A stretch of DNA of 64,000 nt, taken from Nitrosopumilus piranensis (GTDB lineage: Archaea; Thermoproteota; Nitrososphaeria; Nitrososphaerales; Nitrosopumilaceae). The position numbers and the translations under genes were made by a program. Below, in pieces: positions 4,999 through 48,612 of this stretch (position 1 is its first letter; every line of letters starts with the position of its first letter). The notes under the pieces were generated by a model that made no database searches, had not been told where the DNA came from, and saw only the letters and a program-made list of their open reading frames with translations. Location: NCBI RefSeq assembly GCF_000875775.1, contig NZ_CP010868.1:1313707-1377706 (forward strand), read 5' to 3'.

Positions 4999-6168
4999 TT
5001 GAACAAACTTGTACTGAATTCTGAGAGTTTAAACAATGTTTTAGACAATAGGGGAATTTCGCGTCAAAATATATTAGAAATTTATCAACATGCAATAAAA
5101 GATCCAAATGAGCTTTTTTCAGCAGCACAAATTTTAAGAAAAAAATACAAAGGAAATGCAGTTACATTTTCAAAAAAGGCATTTTTCAATATTGTTAATC
5201 TATGCAAAGATAGTTGCTCATATTGCACATACAAAGCAGAGCCAGAGGAAGAAAAATTATCACTAATGTCAAAGCAACAAATTACAGAATTACTTGAACT
5301 GGCAAAAAAATACAGATGTGTTGAAGCATTATTTGTAACAGGTGAACAACCCGAACAGAGATATCAGGAAGCAAGAGATTGGTTAAAAGAAAATGAGGTT
5401 ACATCAACGTCAGAGTATCTAATTCATGCATCAGAAATAGCATTAGAAAAAGGGTTGTTCCCACATACCAACGCAGGCAATCTAAATTTTGAAGAGATGA
5501 GAGAGTTAAAGAAAACAAATATTTCGATGGGATTAATGCTTGAAAATGTTAGTGAAAGATTAACTGAAAAAGGAATGCCTCATTTCTTGGCAGCAAGTAA
5601 AAGACCAAAGGCAAGATTAGAGATTTTAGAAAACTCCGGAAAATTACGAATTCCAATGACCACAGGAATTCTTGTAGGGATTGGAGAAACCATAGAGGAA
5701 ATTATCGATTCATTACTGGCAATAAAACAATTACATCAAAAATACGGAAACATTCAAGAAATAATTTTACAAAATTTCCAACCAAAACAAGACACTAGAA
5801 TGAAAGACGAGCCATCAGCTGATGAGAAATATTTCAAGATTGTAGTGGCGCTATCTCGAATCATCATGCCAAAAATGAATATACAGATTCCACCAAATCT
5901 CTCTCCAAGATCATATCAAAGTTTTTTGTCAGTTGGAATAAATGATTGGGGAGGAATTTCTCCTCTAACACCTGATTTTGTAAATCCTGAATTTTCTTGG
6001 CCAGAAATAAACAAGGTAGAAGAAAATTCAAAGAATGCAGGATTTAATTTGAAATGTAGATTTCCAATATATCCTGAATTCTCTTCTTTTATTAGTAAAG
6101 AGTTACAAGATAAAATGGAAAAAATTCAAGATGAGGAAGGTCTAGTAAAAGAGGAGTATTGGAGATGA
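4999..6168 (+). CDS. cofG: 7,8-didemethyl-8-hydroxy-5-deazariboflavin synthase subunit CofG
   Basis: A 389-residue radical SAM enzyme with its cluster motif at Cys69, Cys73 and Cys76 ('CKDSCSYC'). With CofH it forms the deazaflavin chromophore (Fo) of coenzyme F420 from tyrosine and 5-amino-6-ribitylaminouracil. Other family marks are 'VEALFVTGEQPE', 'TNAGNL' and 'GILVGIGET'. Translation starts at TTG, supported by the TATA box 26 bases upstream. cofH follows with an ATGA overlap, so the two subunits are translationally coupled. F420 is a known cofactor in ammonia-oxidising archaea. Confidence 0.93.
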   Translation: MNKLVLNSESLNNVLDNRGISRQNILEIYQHAIKDPNELFSAAQILRKKYKGNAVTFSKKAFFNIVNLCKDSCSYCTYKAEPEEEKLSLMSKQQITELLELAKKYRCVEALFVTGEQPEQRYQEARDWLKENEVTSTSEYLIHASEIALEKGLFPHTNAGNLNFEEMRELKKTNISMGLMLENVSERLTEKGMPHFLAASKRPKARLEILENSGKLRIPMTTGILVGIGETIEEIIDSLLAIKQLHQKYGNIQEIILQNFQPKQDTRMKDEPSADEKYFKIVVALSRIIMPKMNIQIPPNLSPRSYQSFLSVGINDWGGISPLTPDFVNPEFSWPEINKVEENSKNAGFNLKCRFPIYPEFSSFISKELQDKMEKIQDEEGLVKEEYWR

Positions 6169-7424
6169 CAGCAAACATAGACTCACTTTTTAAAAATTCT
6201 GATCCAATTATTTCAGAAATTCTAAACAAGGCACTTTCAGAAAAAGAAGTATCAACAAAAGAAGGGCTAGCATTATACGATGCATCTGGAATTGATTTTC
6301 ATTTAGTAGGATTGGTTGCAGATGAATTGAGGAAGAGAAGAGTTGGAGACATTGTTTCGTATGTGGTAAATAGAAATATCAATTTTACAAACGTCTGTAT
6401 CAAGCAATGTGGATTTTGTGCATTTAGTAGAGATTTTAGAGAGGAAGAAGGATATTTTCTTCCAACAGAAGAAATTGTACGTAGAACAAAAGAAGCATAT
6501 CAATTAGGAGCAACTGAAGTTTGTGTGCAGGCAGGCCTTCCACCAGATATGGAGGGAGATGTGTATGAGAATATTTGTAGAGAAATAAAGAAAGAGGTCC
6601 CAGATATTCATATTCATGGTTTTTCACCTGAAGAGATACTATATGGAGCAACACGTTCTGGAGTTAACATTGAAGAATTTCTCAAAAGAATGAAAGAAGC
6701 AGGAGTAGACACACTCCCAGGAACATCAGCTGAAATTCTCGATCAAGAACTAAGAGATAAAATTTCACCAGGTAGAATAAGTGTAAAGGATTGGGAAAAA
6801 GTCATCAAGACTGCCCACAAAATGGGAATCAATACCACATCAACTATGATGTTTGGACATTTGGAATCACTTGAAGACAGAGTAAAACATATTGAAAAAC
6901 TCAGAGAGATTCAAAAGGAAACCAATGGATTTACAGAATTTGTTCCACTAAATTTTGTTCATACAGAGGCACCAATGTACAAACACCAATTGCATGAAGG
7001 AATTAGACAAGGCGGTAGCGGAAATGATGTCTTACTAACTCATGCCATTGCAAGAATTATGCTCAACAATTGTATAAACAACATACAGATGTCTTGGGTC
7101 AAAGAAGGACAAAAAATGTCTCAGCTTTTACTGATGTGGGGAGCTAATGACTTTGGGGGAACGTTGATCAATGAAAGTATTTCAACCTCTGCAGGTTCAG
7201 AACATGGTCAATTATTAAAACCAAAAGAAATTAGAAGGATGGTTAGAGAGATTAAAAGAACTCCTGCTGAAAGAAATACAAAATACAAAATACTGAAAAA
7301 ATTTGAAGATAATGAAGAACCAGAAGAGGGACTAGATAAAATTACAAACACATCACAATTTGGCTCATATGTAGAATTGATTAAAATAAATAAATTCAAT
7401 TATCAAAATCCAAGGAGAAAATAA
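6165..7424 (+). CDS. cofH: 5-amino-6-(D-ribitylamino)uracil--L-tyrosine transferase CofH
   Basis: The radical SAM partner of CofG, with the cluster motif 'CIKQCGFC' (Cys78, 82, 85 counted from this start), then 'VCVQAGLPPDM', 'HGFSPEEI' and 'ELRDKISPGRI', typical of CofH. I chose the ATG at 6165 because it overlaps the cofG stop as ATGA and has GAGGAG 8 bases upstream; a TTG at 6159 is also in frame. It transfers the tyrosine-derived fragment onto the ribitylaminouracil in F420 synthesis. The tldE-like gene follows directly. Confidence 0.93.
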   Translation: MTANIDSLFKNSDPIISEILNKALSEKEVSTKEGLALYDASGIDFHLVGLVADELRKRRVGDIVSYVVNRNINFTNVCIKQCGFCAFSRDFREEEGYFLPTEEIVRRTKEAYQLGATEVCVQAGLPPDMEGDVYENICREIKKEVPDIHIHGFSPEEILYGATRSGVNIEEFLKRMKEAGVDTLPGTSAEILDQELRDKISPGRISVKDWEKVIKTAHKMGINTTSTMMFGHLESLEDRVKHIEKLREIQKETNGFTEFVPLNFVHTEAPMYKHQLHEGIRQGGSGNDVLLTHAIARIMLNNCINNIQMSWVKEGQKMSQLLLMWGANDFGGTLINESISTSAGSEHGQLLKPKEIRRMVREIKRTPAERNTKYKILKKFEDNEEPEEGLDKITNTSQFGSYVELIKINKFNYQNPRRK

Positions 7425-19114: not shown

Positions 19115-19444
19115 ATGCTAGATGATCCAAGCAGTCAATCATTCAGAGAAAACATGATTGCAGAAATAAAACGAATTCAAAATGAATTAAACGAGATAAA
19201 AGCAATGAGAACTGAAATATCTGCGAAGAGAAAACCAGCTAAAAAGACTGTGAAGAGAAAACCAGCTAAAAAGACTGTGAAGAGAAAACCAGCTAAAAAG
19301 ACTGTGAAGAGAAAACCAGCTAAAAAGACTGTGAAGAGAAAACCAGCTAAAAAGACTGTGAAGAGAAAACCAGCTAAAAAGACTGTGAAGAGAAAACCAG
19401 CTAAAAAGACTGTGAAATCAAAAAGAAAAACTAGGCGACGGTAG
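19115..19444 (+). CDS. Lys-rich tandem-repeat protein, histone H1-like tail
   Basis: 109 residues in two parts: an N-terminal amphipathic/coiled-coil helix (about 10-37), then seven identical copies of KRKPAKKTV (38-100) and a basic end (KSKRKTRRR). K/P/A-rich tails of this type bind nucleic acid in eukaryotic linker histone H1 and bacterial AlgP/Hc1. The coding DNA is seven perfect 27-base repeats, so copy number may vary between strains. It lies 46 bases after the antiporter gene. DNA or RNA binding is inferred from composition. Confidence 0.8.
   Translation: MLDDPSSQSFRENMIAEIKRIQNELNEIKAMRTEISAKRKPAKKTVKRKPAKKTVKRKPAKKTVKRKPAKKTVKRKPAKKTVKRKPAKKTVKRKPAKKTVKSKRKTRRR
19226..19414 (+). repeat. 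seven perfect 27-bp tandem repeats inside a gene
   Basis: Seven head-to-tail copies of the unit that begins aagagaaaacc and ends gactgtg, with no mismatches I can see, encode KRKPAKKTV. Perfect DNA identity points to recent expansion by slippage or unequal recombination. It is coding, with no spacers, so it is not a CRISPR array. Confidence 0.95.
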
Positions 19445-42960: not shown

Positions 42961-43425
42961 ATGATTTCAGAAGGGGATCCTGTTCCAAAATTTGAATTAA
43001 ATGATGCAAATGGAAACAAGGTAAAATCTTTAGATTTCAAAGGTAAAAAACATGCCATCTATTTTTACCCAAAAGATTTCACTCCAGGATGCACTACAGA
43101 AGCAGATGAGTTTTCAAAAGATTATAAAAAATTTCAAAAAGAGGAAATTGAAATTATTGGAATCAGTCCTGATGATGTAGATTCACACAAAAAATTCTGT
43201 GATAAGATGAAAATCAAATATCCATTATTGGCAGATGTAGATAAAGAAATATCAAAGATGTTTGGTGTTTGGGGCAAGAAAAAATTCATGGGTAGAGAGT
43301 ACATGGGAGTTATGAGAAGCACATTTCTTGTAAATGAAAAAGGAAAAATTTTCAAAATATATCCCAAAGTAAAACCTGCTGGACATTCAAAACAAGTTTT
43401 TGAAGATTTTAAGAGTTCAGAATAA
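42961..43425 (+). CDS. bcp: peroxiredoxin, Bcp/PrxQ type
   Basis: 154 residues with the peroxidatic Cys44 in 'FTPGCTTEADEF', the thioredoxin-fold 'HAIYFYPKDFTPG' and a late conserved Arg ('MRSTFLV'). The resolving Cys five residues after the peroxidatic one in E. coli Bcp is missing; Cys80 could serve instead. It reduces H2O2 and organic peroxides. It is divergent from the aquaporin gene. Confidence 0.92.
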   Translation: MISEGDPVPKFELNDANGNKVKSLDFKGKKHAIYFYPKDFTPGCTTEADEFSKDYKKFQKEEIEIIGISPDDVDSHKKFCDKMKIKYPLLADVDKEISKMFGVWGKKKFMGREYMGVMRSTFLVNEKGKIFKIYPKVKPAGHSKQVFEDFKSSE

Positions 43426-43449: not shown

Positions 43450-44421
43450 TTAGAAACCTTTTGGAAGTGTACCTTTTGGTTTTGGTGGTTCAGGTTCTGG
43501 TTCAGATTTGGGTTCAAAACCTTTTGGTAAGCTACCACGTGATTGCTTAGCTCTTGCGTCCACTTCAGATTGAAGGGCCTCTTGATAAGCTTGTTCACGT
43601 TCTGCTTTTTCTTGTTCAATTCTTTGCAAGTAATCTTTTTCGTACTCTTCTAGTTGTTCTTGTCTTGATTTTCCATCTCCACTACTAGCAGTAGTTTGAG
43701 GCTTTTCGGCCGTACCTTTTGGAAGTGTACCTTTTGGTTTTGGTGGTTCTGGTTGGGGTGGCGGAGGTGCTTGCTGTGTTTGTGCTTTTGCTTCAACTCC
43801 TTCAACACTCATGTTTACTCCACTAAAACTTCCAAATCTTTTATCAGCTGGATGATAAGCCAATCTTGCTCTTGTTGCATAGTATTGGTTTGAACATGCT
43901 GTGTAACCAGTTACGGATGCCTTTTGTTGATTCCAATCAGATGTTGGAACTTTACCAACAGGAGCAGTCATTCTAACAAAATATCTGTTAGGTGCTGGAG
44001 AATAACCTGTTACTTTTGCTCTGTACTGATGGAAATCAGTCATAGGAGCATCATAGTATGCGGCCTCTAAAGCGTCTTGTACTGTTGCTGGAGGTTGTGC
44101 GGTTGTCTCAGCTGGTTTTGGTGCTTCTTGTGGTTTAGGAGTTTCTGCTGGTTTGTCGTCCATACCTTTTGGCAATGTTGCTTTAGGTTTGGCAGTTTCA
44201 GCAGGTTTTATCTCGGCTGGTTTTTCAGAGGGTTTTGTTTCAGATGGTTTCACTTCAGCTGGTTTGGTTTCAGCTGGCTTTGCTTCAGCTGGTTTTTCTG
44301 CGGGTTTGGTTTCAGCAGGTTTAGCCTCAATTTCTGAGGAAAGTTTTGACAGTTTTGCCTCGAGTTCGGCAATCTTGGCTTCAAGATCTTTTTTCGTACT
44401 TGCTTTTCGTTTTGCTGCCAT
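43450..44421 (-). CDS. Pro/Ala/Lys repeat protein with LPKG motifs, long paralogue
   Basis: 323 residues. A coiled-coil start ('TKKDLEAKIAELEAKLSKLSSEI') is followed by a (K)PAE-rich low-complexity linker (about 38-115) and a folded domain with two similar halves, each containing 'KVTGYSPAPNRYFVR' / 'SVTGYTACSNQYYATR' (about 116-205). Then comes a Pro-rich tail, a second coiled coil and the C-terminal 'PKGTLPKGF'. The motif [ST]LPKG occurs four times. It shares an identical 610-bp core with the gene at 44804-45511. The function is unknown; modular protein-protein binding is likely. Confidence 0.75.
   Translation of the reverse strand: MAAKRKASTKKDLEAKIAELEAKLSKLSSEIEAKPAETKPAEKPAEAKPAETKPAEVKPSETKPSEKPAEIKPAETAKPKATLPKGMDDKPAETPKPQEAPKPAETTAQPPATVQDALEAAYYDAPMTDFHQYRAKVTGYSPAPNRYFVRMTAPVGKVPTSDWNQQKASVTGYTACSNQYYATRARLAYHPADKRFGSFSGVNMSVEGVEAKAQTQQAPPPPQPEPPKPKGTLPKGTAEKPQTTASSGDGKSRQEQLEEYEKDYLQRIEQEKAEREQAYQEALQSEVDARAKQSRGSLPKGFEPKSEPEPEPPKPKGTLPKGF
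43715..44324 (-). repeat. 610-bp direct repeat, copy A
   Basis: The segment is identical by eye, with no gap, to 44811-45420 (constant offset of 1096 bases). It covers the central domain and linker of the two paralogous genes. The flanking parts of the genes differ. Confidence 0.9.
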
Positions 44422-44542
44422 TTCTTACAATAGATTAGGCATTGTTTATTTACATTTTGTTCAGTAAAGGATCTTTGATCAAATAAATTCGTAAAATCAA
44501 TTGATTATTTGTAAAAATTATAATGTCTAAACTATTCAGCAG

Positions 44543-44734
44543 TTAGTCAGGTTCCCAAAATTGCATCATGTACATACAATTGTTACAACGCCAAATCTTG
44601 ACATGGGTTCCATTAGCAGTATCTGCAACATATTTCCCATCATCCATTTTTGCAACTCTAGGCAAATAACTCAATTCAGGGTTTTCAAGCCATTCGTTTT
44701 GCTGGCAGTTAGGACATTGGATTTTTGGAGGCAT
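44543..44734 (-). CDS. small zinc-ribbon protein (63 aa)
   Basis: Two pairs, 'CPNCQQNEW' and 'CNNCMYMM', with 36 residues between, give a zinc ribbon. It lies between the two repeat-protein paralogues on the same strand. The function is unknown. Confidence 0.7.
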   Translation of the reverse strand: MPPKIQCPNCQQNEWLENPELSYLPRVAKMDDGKYVADTANGTHVKIWRCNNCMYMMQFWEPD

Positions 44735-44803
44735 GTAATATTAGAAAATGTGATCAAAGAAAAATATTATTATTAAAAATAGAAAATAAAAGATGTTTTT
44801 GAA

Positions 44804-45511
44804 TTAGAATCCTTTTGGAAGTGTACCTTTTGGTTTTGGTGGTTCTGGTTGGGGTGGCGGAGGTGCTTGCTGTGTTTGTGCTTTTGCTTCAACTCCTTCA
44901 ACACTCATGTTTACTCCACTAAAACTTCCAAATCTTTTATCAGCTGGATGATAAGCCAATCTTGCTCTTGTTGCATAGTATTGGTTTGAACATGCTGTGT
45001 AACCAGTTACGGATGCCTTTTGTTGATTCCAATCAGATGTTGGAACTTTACCAACAGGAGCAGTCATTCTAACAAAATATCTGTTAGGTGCTGGAGAATA
45101 ACCTGTTACTTTTGCTCTGTACTGATGGAAATCAGTCATAGGAGCATCATAGTATGCGGCCTCTAAAGCGTCTTGTACTGTTGCTGGAGGTTGTGCGGTT
45201 GTCTCAGCTGGTTTTGGTGCTTCTTGTGGTTTAGGAGTTTCTGCTGGTTTGTCGTCCATACCTTTTGGCAATGTTGCTTTAGGTTTGGCAGTTTCAGCAG
45301 GTTTTATCTCGGCTGGTTTTTCAGAGGGTTTTGTTTCAGATGGTTTCACTTCAGCTGGTTTGGTTTCAGCTGGCTTTGCTTCAGCTGGTTTTTCTGCGGG
45401 TTTGGTTTCAGCAGGTTTAGAAAGCTGAGATGAAAGTGAGTTTAGTTTTGCTTCTAATTCGGCAATCTTGGCTTCAAGATCTTTTTTAGTTTGCTTTTTA
45501 GCAGTTGCCAT
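44804..45511 (-). CDS. Pro/Ala/Lys repeat protein with LPKG motifs, short paralogue
   Basis: 235 residues: a coiled-coil start ('TKKDLEAKIAELEAKLNSLSSQL') similar to but distinct from that of the long paralogue, then the same linker and double 'VTGY' domain, identical residue for residue, ending directly in 'PKGTLPKGF'. It lacks the long paralogue's second coiled coil. Both genes point the same way with a zinc-ribbon gene between them. The identical core suggests gene conversion or very recent duplication. Confidence 0.75.
   Translation of the reverse strand: MATAKKQTKKDLEAKIAELEAKLNSLSSQLSKPAETKPAEKPAEAKPAETKPAEVKPSETKPSEKPAEIKPAETAKPKATLPKGMDDKPAETPKPQEAPKPAETTAQPPATVQDALEAAYYDAPMTDFHQYRAKVTGYSPAPNRYFVRMTAPVGKVPTSDWNQQKASVTGYTACSNQYYATRARLAYHPADKRFGSFSGVNMSVEGVEAKAQTQQAPPPPQPEPPKPKGTLPKGF
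44811..45420 (-). repeat. 610-bp direct repeat, copy B
   Basis: Second copy of the segment at 43715-44324. Its left edge coincides with the C-terminal LPKG-coding sequence and its right edge with the end of the PAE linker. Confidence 0.9.
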
Positions 45512-45577
45512 TAGTCTGCATGGATAATCCGGGGTTTATGAGCATTTGGGTTATTTCCATACACAGATTTGATCAAG

Positions 45578-45586
45578 TTTTATAAG
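45578..45586 (+). promoter_or_regulatory. TATA box deciding the next start
   Basis: TTTTATAAG is centred 26 bases before the ATG at 45608. The upstream in-frame ATG (45569) would lie before this promoter, so it is not used. Confidence 0.6.
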
Positions 45587-45607
45587 CACAAATTGCTTAC
45601 TGATCAT

Positions 45608-45982
45608 ATGGACGACTTTGAAAAAGAATTTCCAGAATTTGACTGGAAAAATACACCTGCATACAAACACCCAGGTGGAAAAGATTGTCCATGCCCAAAA
45701 CACGAGTACATCAGAGAGCAGATCAATTTTACAAAGCAGGTAAATGAAAAAGGTAAGGAACCAGCAAAAGTTACTCTCAAATTTTGCCCCGATCATTACA
45801 GAGTATACATGGATGAAGTGATCCCTGCAATGCCACTAAAGTACAAAATTCTAACAAAGATTGCACTAAAACTTGGTGCAATTCAAGTGGAGCAATTAAA
45901 GTACATGGAATCAGAATTATGCTTCTACTGCAAATTTGGTTCTGGCGGACATGACAAAAAGACAGAACTTCCACCAATGTAA
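45608..45982 (+). CDS. unknown Cys-containing protein (124 aa)
   Basis: Starts 'MDDFEKEFPEFDW' at 45608, chosen from the TATA box. Cys clusters at 'DCPCPKH', 'KFCPDHY' and 'LCFYCKFGSGGH' could bind one or two metals. The middle is helical ('MPLKYKILTKIALKLGAIQVEQLKYM'). There is no signal peptide. I do not recognise the family. Confidence 0.65.
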   Translation: MDDFEKEFPEFDWKNTPAYKHPGGKDCPCPKHEYIREQINFTKQVNEKGKEPAKVTLKFCPDHYRVYMDEVIPAMPLKYKILTKIALKLGAIQVEQLKYMESELCFYCKFGSGGHDKKTELPPM

Positions 45983-46056: not shown

Positions 46057-47499
46057 GTGCCAATAGAAGATATCCACGAGTTTATTTCAGAACTTGAAAG
46101 AAATGGCGAATTAAAGAGAGTAAAAACAGAAGTTGACTCGAATTTAGAGATTGCAGAAATTATGAGAAGAGAGATGTATTCAAACGGACCTGCGGTTCTT
46201 TTTGAGAATGTAAAAGATTATGATATGCCAGTTTTAGGAAATGCGTTTGGTTCTATGAAAAGATTAGAGATAGGACTTGAAATGACAGACTTTACTGAAA
46301 TTGGTAAACGTATTGCAGATATGACAAAGATGGATGTGCCATCAGGTTTACTAAATAAAATAAAAAAACTTCCAGAACTCTCAAAGATGACAGCATCATT
46401 TCCAAAATCAGAATCGGATGGACCAGTAACTGAGATTACATCAACTGATGCGTCATTTGAGGATTTGCCAATTCTAAAATCTTGGCCAAATGATGCAGGA
46501 CGATTTATCACATTAGGTTTAGTTGCAACAAAACATCCAGAAACAGGAGTTAGAAATCTAGGAGTATACAGAATGCAAATTGTAGACAAAACGCATGCAT
46601 TAATGCATTGGCAAAAACACAAAAGAGGTGCCCACCATGGAGACATTTCAAAAGATAGAGGAGAAAAAATTCCAACTGCAATAATCATTGGTGGAGACCC
46701 TGCAACAATTTTTTCATCAATTGCTCCAGTTCCAGAAGGACTTGACAAATACTTGTTTGCAGGAATTACAAGAAAAGAAGGGATTAAGACTGTAAAATGT
46801 AAAACAATTGATTTGGATGTTCCTGCAAATGCAGAGATTGTTTTAGAGGGATATGTAGATCCAGCAGACATTAGAGATGAGGGCCCGTTTGGAGATCATA
46901 CAGGATACTACACACCAGTAGAACCATACCCAACATTCACACTAACAGGAATTATGAGAAGAAAAGATCCTGTATATGTTACAACGGTAGTTGGAAAACC
47001 AATACTTGAAGACGCATATATTGGAAAAGTAATTGAGCGCTCATTTTTGCCATTAGTTCAGATGTTTCATCCAGAAGTAGTTGACTTTAGTATGCCAGCA
47101 GCAGGATGGTTCCAAGGATTTGCTATAATTTCAATTAAGAAAAGGTATCCAGGCCAAGCAAAAAAAGTGATGATGGGACTATGGGGAATGGGGCAATTAT
47201 CACTAACAAAGATGTTCGTAGTAGTAGATGAAGACATCAACGTTCATGATATCAATGATGTTATTTGGGCAATCACAACCAGGGCAGATGCAGCAAGAGA
47301 CACTACCATAATCAATAATGCCCCGACAGACACCCTTGATCCTGCATCACCACTTGTAAACTTGGGTTCAAAGATGGGAATTGATGCAACACAAAAAACA
47401 AAAGAAGAGGGATATGATAGAGAAATTCAGCAGCAAGTAAAAGTTGATAATAAAACAAGGAATCTAGTAGATTCTAAATGGTCTGATTATGGACTATAG
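46057..47499 (+). CDS. UbiD-family decarboxylase
   Basis: 480 residues matching UbiD (3-octaprenyl-4-hydroxybenzoate decarboxylase family) across the length: 'GNAFGSMKRLEIGL', 'YRMQIVDKTHALMHWQKHKRGAHH', 'AIIIGGDPATIFSSIAPVP', 'EGPFGDHTGYYTP' and 'DEDINVHDINDVIWAITTR'. The enzymes use prenylated FMN made by UbiX. Archaeal members act in menaquinone synthesis or, as anhydromevalonate phosphate decarboxylase, in the mevalonate pathway. The convergent mqnC neighbour favours the quinone option only weakly. Starts at GTG. Confidence 0.9.
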   Translation: MPIEDIHEFISELERNGELKRVKTEVDSNLEIAEIMRREMYSNGPAVLFENVKDYDMPVLGNAFGSMKRLEIGLEMTDFTEIGKRIADMTKMDVPSGLLNKIKKLPELSKMTASFPKSESDGPVTEITSTDASFEDLPILKSWPNDAGRFITLGLVATKHPETGVRNLGVYRMQIVDKTHALMHWQKHKRGAHHGDISKDRGEKIPTAIIIGGDPATIFSSIAPVPEGLDKYLFAGITRKEGIKTVKCKTIDLDVPANAEIVLEGYVDPADIRDEGPFGDHTGYYTPVEPYPTFTLTGIMRRKDPVYVTTVVGKPILEDAYIGKVIERSFLPLVQMFHPEVVDFSMPAAGWFQGFAIISIKKRYPGQAKKVMMGLWGMGQLSLTKMFVVVDEDINVHDINDVIWAITTRADAARDTTIINNAPTDTLDPASPLVNLGSKMGIDATQKTKEEGYDREIQQQVKVDNKTRNLVDSKWSDYGL

Positions 47500-48612
47500 T
47501 GTTGAGACAGGATTATAGAAATTATCACGTTCTTCAACAGAGTAACCAATTTGATGAATTGCATCTATGATTATTTTGTCAGTGAGTTCAGTTGAGCGTG
47601 CACCGGTACAAGAAACTACTTCTTCTCCAATCAAAGTTCCACCAAAATCATCTGCACCATACTGCAAAGCAAGTTGAGCCATACCTACACCGTTTGTCAG
47701 CCATGAGGATTGAATATGAGGGATAAGCCCATCAAAGATCAATCTAGAAATAGCAATCATCTTCAAGAGTTGAATTCCACCAGTACCATATTCTACCAAA
47801 CCTTCCTCATGCATCAAAGTATTGTTTGGCTCAAAATTCCATGGAATAAATGCCATGAATCCTTTTGTTTTTTCTTGTAGTTTTACGAGTTTGAAAAAGT
47901 GATCAACAATATCTTTGTTATTTTCTACATGTCCATACATCATTGTTGCAGAAGACGGGATTCCAAGAGAATGAGATTCATCCATAATTCTAATCCAATC
48001 ATCACTTGAAATTTTCTTTGGGCTAATAATTTCTTTAACAGAATCAGTCAAAATTTCAGCTCCTGCTCCAGGCATTGATTGCAGACCAGCGTCTTTGAGT
48101 CTAGATAAAATTTCCTTAGTTGATGATTTTTCAACTCTTGCAATCATATCAATTTCAGATGTAGATAGTCCATGAACACCAACTTTGGGGAACTTTTCTC
48201 TAATCATTCTAAACGCATCTTCATAATATTCAATTTTCAGATTTGGGTTATGACCTCCTTGAATCAAAACTTGACGAATCTTGAACATGTCCCATGCAGT
48301 TTTCACTCTGGATTCAATTTGATCCAATGTTAATGTATAAGAATCATCAGCTCCAGGTGATCGGTAAAATGCACAAAACTTGCAATCAGTAATACAGACA
48401 TTGGTATAATTCAAAATTATATTATTTACAAAAGATGCTTTTTTCCCAAATTGTTTTCTTGTCAAATGACCAGATACAAGTCCCATCAAATGAACATCAT
48501 CAGATTCCAATAATCTGACACAATCTTCAGATCCAGGTCGTTGACCATTTAGAGAATTTTCTAAAATATCTTTAATGTCACTTTTTTGTAGTTGCTCAGT
48601 TGTCTGACTCAA
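47494..48612 (-). CDS. mqnC: cyclic dehypoxanthinyl futalosine synthase-like radical SAM enzyme MqnC
   Basis: 372 residues of the CofH/MqnC/MqnE group, with the cluster motif at Cys73, Cys77 and Cys80 ('CITDCKFC'). 'FIPWNFEPNNT' distinguishes MqnC from CofH. 'LIQGGHNPNLKI' and 'SMPGAGAEIL' are further MqnC marks. It cyclises dehypoxanthine futalosine in the menaquinone futalosine pathway. Its 3' end overlaps the UbiD gene's by 6 bases. Other mqn genes are not in this window. Confidence 0.88.
   Translation of the reverse strand: MSQTTEQLQKSDIKDILENSLNGQRPGSEDCVRLLESDDVHLMGLVSGHLTRKQFGKKASFVNNIILNYTNVCITDCKFCAFYRSPGADDSYTLTLDQIESRVKTAWDMFKIRQVLIQGGHNPNLKIEYYEDAFRMIREKFPKVGVHGLSTSEIDMIARVEKSSTKEILSRLKDAGLQSMPGAGAEILTDSVKEIISPKKISSDDWIRIMDESHSLGIPSSATMMYGHVENNKDIVDHFFKLVKLQEKTKGFMAFIPWNFEPNNTLMHEEGLVEYGTGGIQLLKMIAISRLIFDGLIPHIQSSWLTNGVGMAQLALQYGADDFGGTLIGEEVVSCTGARSTELTDKIIIDAIHQIGYSVEERDNFYNPVSTL

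Follow-up and report, generated by a model that had tools for sequence, protein, structure and literature searches.

An old gene pair of Nitrosopumilaceae whose common core is very probably matched by recurrent, domain-limited gene conversion

The stretch of DNA analysed here, referred to as the window, comprises 64,000 nucleotides of the genome of Nitrosopumilus piranensis, which is a single contig of 1,713,078 bp and is 99.86% complete. The window contains, on its reverse strand, two neighbouring paralogues: a short copy, S (44804..45511), coding for 235 aa, and a long copy, L (43450..44421), coding for 323 aa. From the N- to the C-terminus, L comprises a basic leader and the N-terminal helix, a KPAE-repeat linker, a double-VTGY core, a GTLPKG motif, a second charged helix, a GSLPKG motif and a GTLPKGF end; S has its own N-terminus, the same linker and core as L, and likewise ends with GTLPKGF. 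The core domain has the same sequence in both proteins (102 aa; 43777..44082 in L and 44873..45178 in S, reverse strand) and consists of two diverged repeats of the WNxQKxxVTGYxxxxNxYFATR type. Between S and L, also on the reverse strand, lies a 63-aa Zn-ribbon ORF with two CxxC motifs (44543..44734). The conserved flanks are two genes on the forward strand, a Bcp-like peroxiredoxin (42961..43425) and a 137-aa Cys-rich protein (45569..45982), the latter adjoining a gene for a UbiD-like decarboxylase (46057-47499).

The maximal exact match between the two genes is exactly 610 bp long, with an offset of 1096 and no gaps, and occupies 43715..44324 in L and 44811..45420 in S, both on the reverse strand; an earlier note on this DNA had described these tracts as identical base for base, and the match ends precisely at those positions. 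The tract is larger than the double 'VTGY' domain that the note had assigned to it: it begins in the KPAE-repeat linker (about codon 31 of S), spans the double-VTGY core and reaches the GTLPKG motif at the S end. Outside the exact tract are the L-specific N-terminus (MAAKRKASTKKDLE..., 44325..44421, reverse strand), which is predicted to be helical, and the S-specific N-terminus (MATAKKQTKKDLE..., 45421..45511, reverse strand). As previously proposed, these parts differ at both synonymous and non-synonymous sites, and an anchored stretch of 54 nt is 76% identical in this genome. At the opposite end, the L-only C-terminal extension (43450..43714, reverse strand) contains a confidently modelled helix (residues 253-294) and two further LPKG motifs; together with the last shared GTLPKG, it forms a 93-aa C-terminal part where S stops at GTLPKGF, in agreement with the difference in architecture noticed before. 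The LPKG motif, which was said to mark both proteins and to form both C-termini, is found twice in S and four times in L, and both proteins do end with it. A scan of the whole window for exact repeats of at least 30 bp revealed, besides this match, only a tandem array of a 27-bp unit at 19.2 kb and, inside the S/L locus, short LPKG and N-terminal matches; since no comparable exact repeat occurs elsewhere in the window, a chance origin of the 610-bp match is excluded.

Other features were observed in the window and in the genome. A 109-aa ORF at 19115-19444 opens with a short, helix-like segment; about seven near-perfect 27-bp repeats, coding for KRKPAKKTV, then form a histone-H1-like basic tail. 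Elsewhere in the same genome (L003:928-1782, near C1:1621 kb), a protein with a coiled-coil start has a long AKTKKADAKP repeat array in front of a C-terminal part that looks folded; this suggests that linkers made of Lys/Pro/Ala repeats are found more than once in this genome. Two homologous proteins with 36% identity, coded at 6165-7424 and 47494-48612, look from their sequences like radical-SAM enzymes of the CofH/MqnE kind.

Relatives of S and L are present in 86 of 95 Nitrosopumilus genomes, and core matches were found in all 20 Nitrosopumilaceae genera sampled. The class sample outside the family gave no core match save one, in genome G240, which holds internal stop codons and was taken as a chance match. 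The order UbiD, 137-aa protein, S, Zn-ribbon, L, peroxiredoxin is conserved, with single elements lost in some species; most Nitrosopumilus, as well as other genera of the family, have a pair in this order, single-contig genomes included. The two copies are distinguishable by how they begin, within Nitrosopumilus with MAAAKKQTKKDLE in S and MAAKRKASTKKDLE in L, and by a second marker, the helix of the YExDYLxRxEQ type carried by the L-only tail; the S and L types of ends were recognised in all the genera compared. The Zn-ribbon ORF was found in 34 of the 95 Nitrosopumilus genomes searched; it is missing in G032 and G092, and it is thus not needed for the pair, since both copies persist there. 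Shorter relatives with a single STGYTGNKYFATR-type repeat, and with LPAG replacing LPKG, occur in genera g14 and g17 (L166 and L168) and likely represent a simpler form of the family.

Over a 92-codon (276-nt) core, 13 of 21 Nitrosopumilus genomes have no difference between S and L and the remaining ones have 94-99.6% identity, while core orthologues between Nitrosopumilus species have a median identity of 81.5%. With the exception of G003 and G085, the identity of the two cores within a genome exceeds that with the best orthologue (19 of 21 genomes), which is the result that the earlier note had expected from its proposed comparison if an old duplication had its core kept identical by gene conversion, and it supports that reading. 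The same excess of paralogue over orthologue identity, which indicates recurrent concerted evolution when found in at least five species, extends to four further genera: g5, g10, g12 and g15 have no codon difference at all between the S and L cores of a genome. Exact matches between S and L are 110-610 bp at their longest within a genome; the longest ones between species do not exceed 118 bp, with a median of 32, in a comparison that leaves out rows G071 and G065. Over the same core codons, species differ by a median of 17 synonymous and 13 non-synonymous codons; with so many synonymous differences between species, the identity cannot be put down to purifying selection acting on the protein alone. 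Homogenisation is weaker in G003 and only partial in G188 (g16) and G135 (g13), thus conversion is recurrent but not uniform.

The phylogenetic trees of the two parts of the genes have different topologies. In the core tree, S pairs with L by species and the S/L label changes 20 times, starred branches forcing at least 18 of these changes; in the N-terminal tree, S and L separate by locus with two label changes, and none of 500 shuffles gives so low a number (average 13.9). This separation, together with the conserved gene order, indicates that the duplication is older than the species splits. S and L are, with high confidence, paralogues of one tandem duplication that preceded the separation of no fewer than five to seven genera of Nitrosopumilaceae, and their subsequent evolution was shaped by recurrent, domain-limited gene conversion.

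Mapping of the homogenised segment in 30 genomes gave a median length of 492 bp (range 110-610 bp) for the exact tract that includes the core. In most genomes its beginning lies in the KPAE linker or immediately after the N-terminal helix, and as a rule it does not extend past the GTLPKG motif close to the stop codon of S; its edges are inside the coding sequences. Where the tract spans the linker, the number of linker repeats is common to S and L within the species, and in a few species (G032, G092 and some of g10) the N-terminal helix is also included in the identity. The 60 bp upstream of S and of L are no more similar than expected by chance, with a median of 47% for the best of seven shifts. 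With median identities of 100% for the core, 79% for the N-terminal parts and 47% for the 5′ flanks, and with a C-terminal extension found in L only, conversion is limited to one domain.

An in silico duplication of one gene, about which the earlier note had been concerned, would be suggested by the many draft contigs that end within the repeat, which is hard to assemble; such ends, found in several drafts, are expected from a near-identical duplicate. However, the flanks, the N-termini and the C-termini of the two copies are distinct, an ORF lies in between, and the pair is found in many single-contig genomes, in several of which (G006, G004, G007 and G003) the identity is imperfect. The recurrence of the pair, of the synteny and of the distinct S and L ends in dozens of independent assemblies, single-contig genomes included, leaves an assembly artefact with a negligible probability, and it gives no support to the recent domain transfer that had been considered as an alternative. 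Near-identical copies within each genome would also be expected from recent and independent tandem duplications in each species, with no long-term conversion; however, the same S and L N-termini, L-only extension and gene order recur across genera, the N-terminal sequences group by locus across species, and this reading would require dozens of parallel duplications, each with identical swaps of head and tail. Recent duplication or transfer is accordingly very improbable. In the old pair, homologous recombination between the two direct repeats, located about 1.1 kb apart, has very probably written the linker-core-LPKG segment of one copy over that of the other repeatedly and without exchange of the ends. 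Each genome therefore contains two genes with different upstream regions and N-termini, the C-terminal extension of L and a common core; the expected machinery would be a RadA-type, non-reciprocal recombination between sister copies. Unequal crossover would be a destructive side-product of this process, deleting the Zn-ribbon ORF and leaving one candidate S-head/L-tail hybrid.

Genes of this hybrid kind were identified. G013, G017 and G091 each have a single gene that begins like S and ends like L, and no Zn-ribbon was detected at any position of the three genomes; G009, a single contig, has at the syntenic site an in-frame 150-aa S-head/L-tail fusion (L058:2630-3082) from which both the core and the Zn-ribbon are missing, and the core is thus not indispensable in this genome, where only the core-less fusion is left. 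That one copy can lose its core is indicated by G036 (L054:1063-1326), in which S is reduced to an 88-aa ORF without the core and L is intact. The hybrids of G013, G017 and G091 may derive from recombination between the repeats, which would yield them, or, in drafts, from assembly collapse. Since one product of an unequal crossover looks like them, these genes and the fusion of G009 also favour a process in which recurrent unequal crossing-over, through triplication and contraction, homogenises the copies in place of non-reciprocal conversion. This process is rather unlikely, as no intact triplication occurs among the single-contig genomes examined, both ends are kept in most pairs, and the hybrids in short-read assemblies may be collapsed repeats; conversion is the likely main route. 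A different question is why conversion persists. Any close direct repeat may be homogenised in these archaea, and the cores would then match without any benefit, which is compatible with the evolutionary history outlined above. The short distance between the copies, the variation of tract length between species and the overwriting of N-terminal stretches in some of them are all in favour of such a neutral identity, to which a substantial probability, somewhat below even, is assigned; however, the borders of conversion are near-constant in most species and the ends stay distinct, which suggests that selection eliminates conversions that extend into them.

Pfam and NCBIfam contain no match to S or L above the cut-off, PHROGs gave nothing convincing, the PDB search gave no meaningful match, and no relatives were found in the viral contigs searched. 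The nearest candidate, PF01693 (the RNase H1 hybrid-binding domain, Cauli_VI), gained no support: its best E-values (0.018-0.037), obtained for a minority of members, are not significant, and nothing exceeds its gathering cut-off in this genome or in any genome of the phylum sample; the likeness of some core members to this RNase H1 N-terminal domain is weak (E 0.018), and the core model is not confident. PDB matches to CFA/I fimbrial fusions were discarded, as they involve 16 residues that recur in an engineered protein. S and L have no hydrophobic segment. In the AlphaFold2 model of full-length L, two helices are confident, the N-terminal one (residues 2-32, pLDDT about 88) and the second one (residues 253-294, pLDDT about 93), and the rest of the protein has low confidence; the core models reach a pLDDT of about 35-60 (40 for the core alone). 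Aromatic residues account for 15% of the core versus 0% of the linker. In G135 the two diverged repeats of the core are identical at 13 of 26 positions, a value not reached in 100,000 shuffles. The VTG motifs of the core may resemble those of VTG-repeat disordered scaffolds, such as the carboxysome protein CsoS2.

From this anatomy, the N-terminal helix, a predicted coiled coil, would join chains and the Pro/Lys/Glu/Ala linker would act as a spacer, while the double-VTGY core would bind a partner common to S and L; the LPKG motifs could provide repeated short contacts, with L contributing the additional second helix. Conversion would then keep the shared binding module matched in the two proteins. 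On these grounds, S and L may tentatively be viewed as cytosolic adaptors that oligomerise, are largely disordered and have a double-VTGY binding module in common. That they are two isoforms of a multivalent scaffold specific to Nitrosopumilaceae, with cores that must match because the proteins co-assemble, is slightly more doubtful still.

The process of conversion is already known in kind, and its closest parallel is represented by mtrA-1 and mtrA-2 of Methanococcales and Methanomicrobiales, neighbouring paralogues of an ancient duplication, a recent one being excluded by synteny; in these genes only one domain has been homogenised by gene conversion in the long term, and the other part differs in architecture (PMC4632066). 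S and L are similarly archaeal neighbouring paralogues with an old duplication and domain-limited conversion. However, mtrA codes for a known enzyme subunit with a membrane anchor (PMC4632066), whereas the S and L proteins, from the Nitrosopumilaceae, are uncharacterised, mostly disordered and soluble, and both their ends are distinct. Long-lasting concerted evolution in prokaryotes has been surveyed, with 26 genes listed in Tables 1 and 2, including tuf, psbA and amoCAB of Nitrosomonadales; neither the S/L locus nor any thaumarchaeal case is among them (PMC6053082). The S/L pair shares the pattern of that survey, being more alike within than between species, with conserved synteny and in more than five species; unlike S and L, most of the surveyed genes are homogenised over nearly their full length and have a known function. 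A search of the literature on Nitrosopumilus gene conversion and on the likely SCM1 locus tags, with a coverage that excludes most subscription journals, found no description of the pair. The S/L pair adds an uncharacterised protein family to the genes with conversion of the mtrA kind.

Gene conversion that persists through whole families is rare in prokaryotes, and the S/L locus provides a case in ocean ammonia oxidisers that affects only part of a gene. The repeat accounts for the breaks of many draft genomes at this locus and, being traceable in about 30 genomes, the pair is a good natural test of selected versus passive conversion. S and L define a conserved, uncharacterised protein family of Nitrosopumilaceae; if the scaffold reading were true, selection would use gene conversion as a device to match the copies, while the upstream regions and the tails would set the roles of the isoforms.
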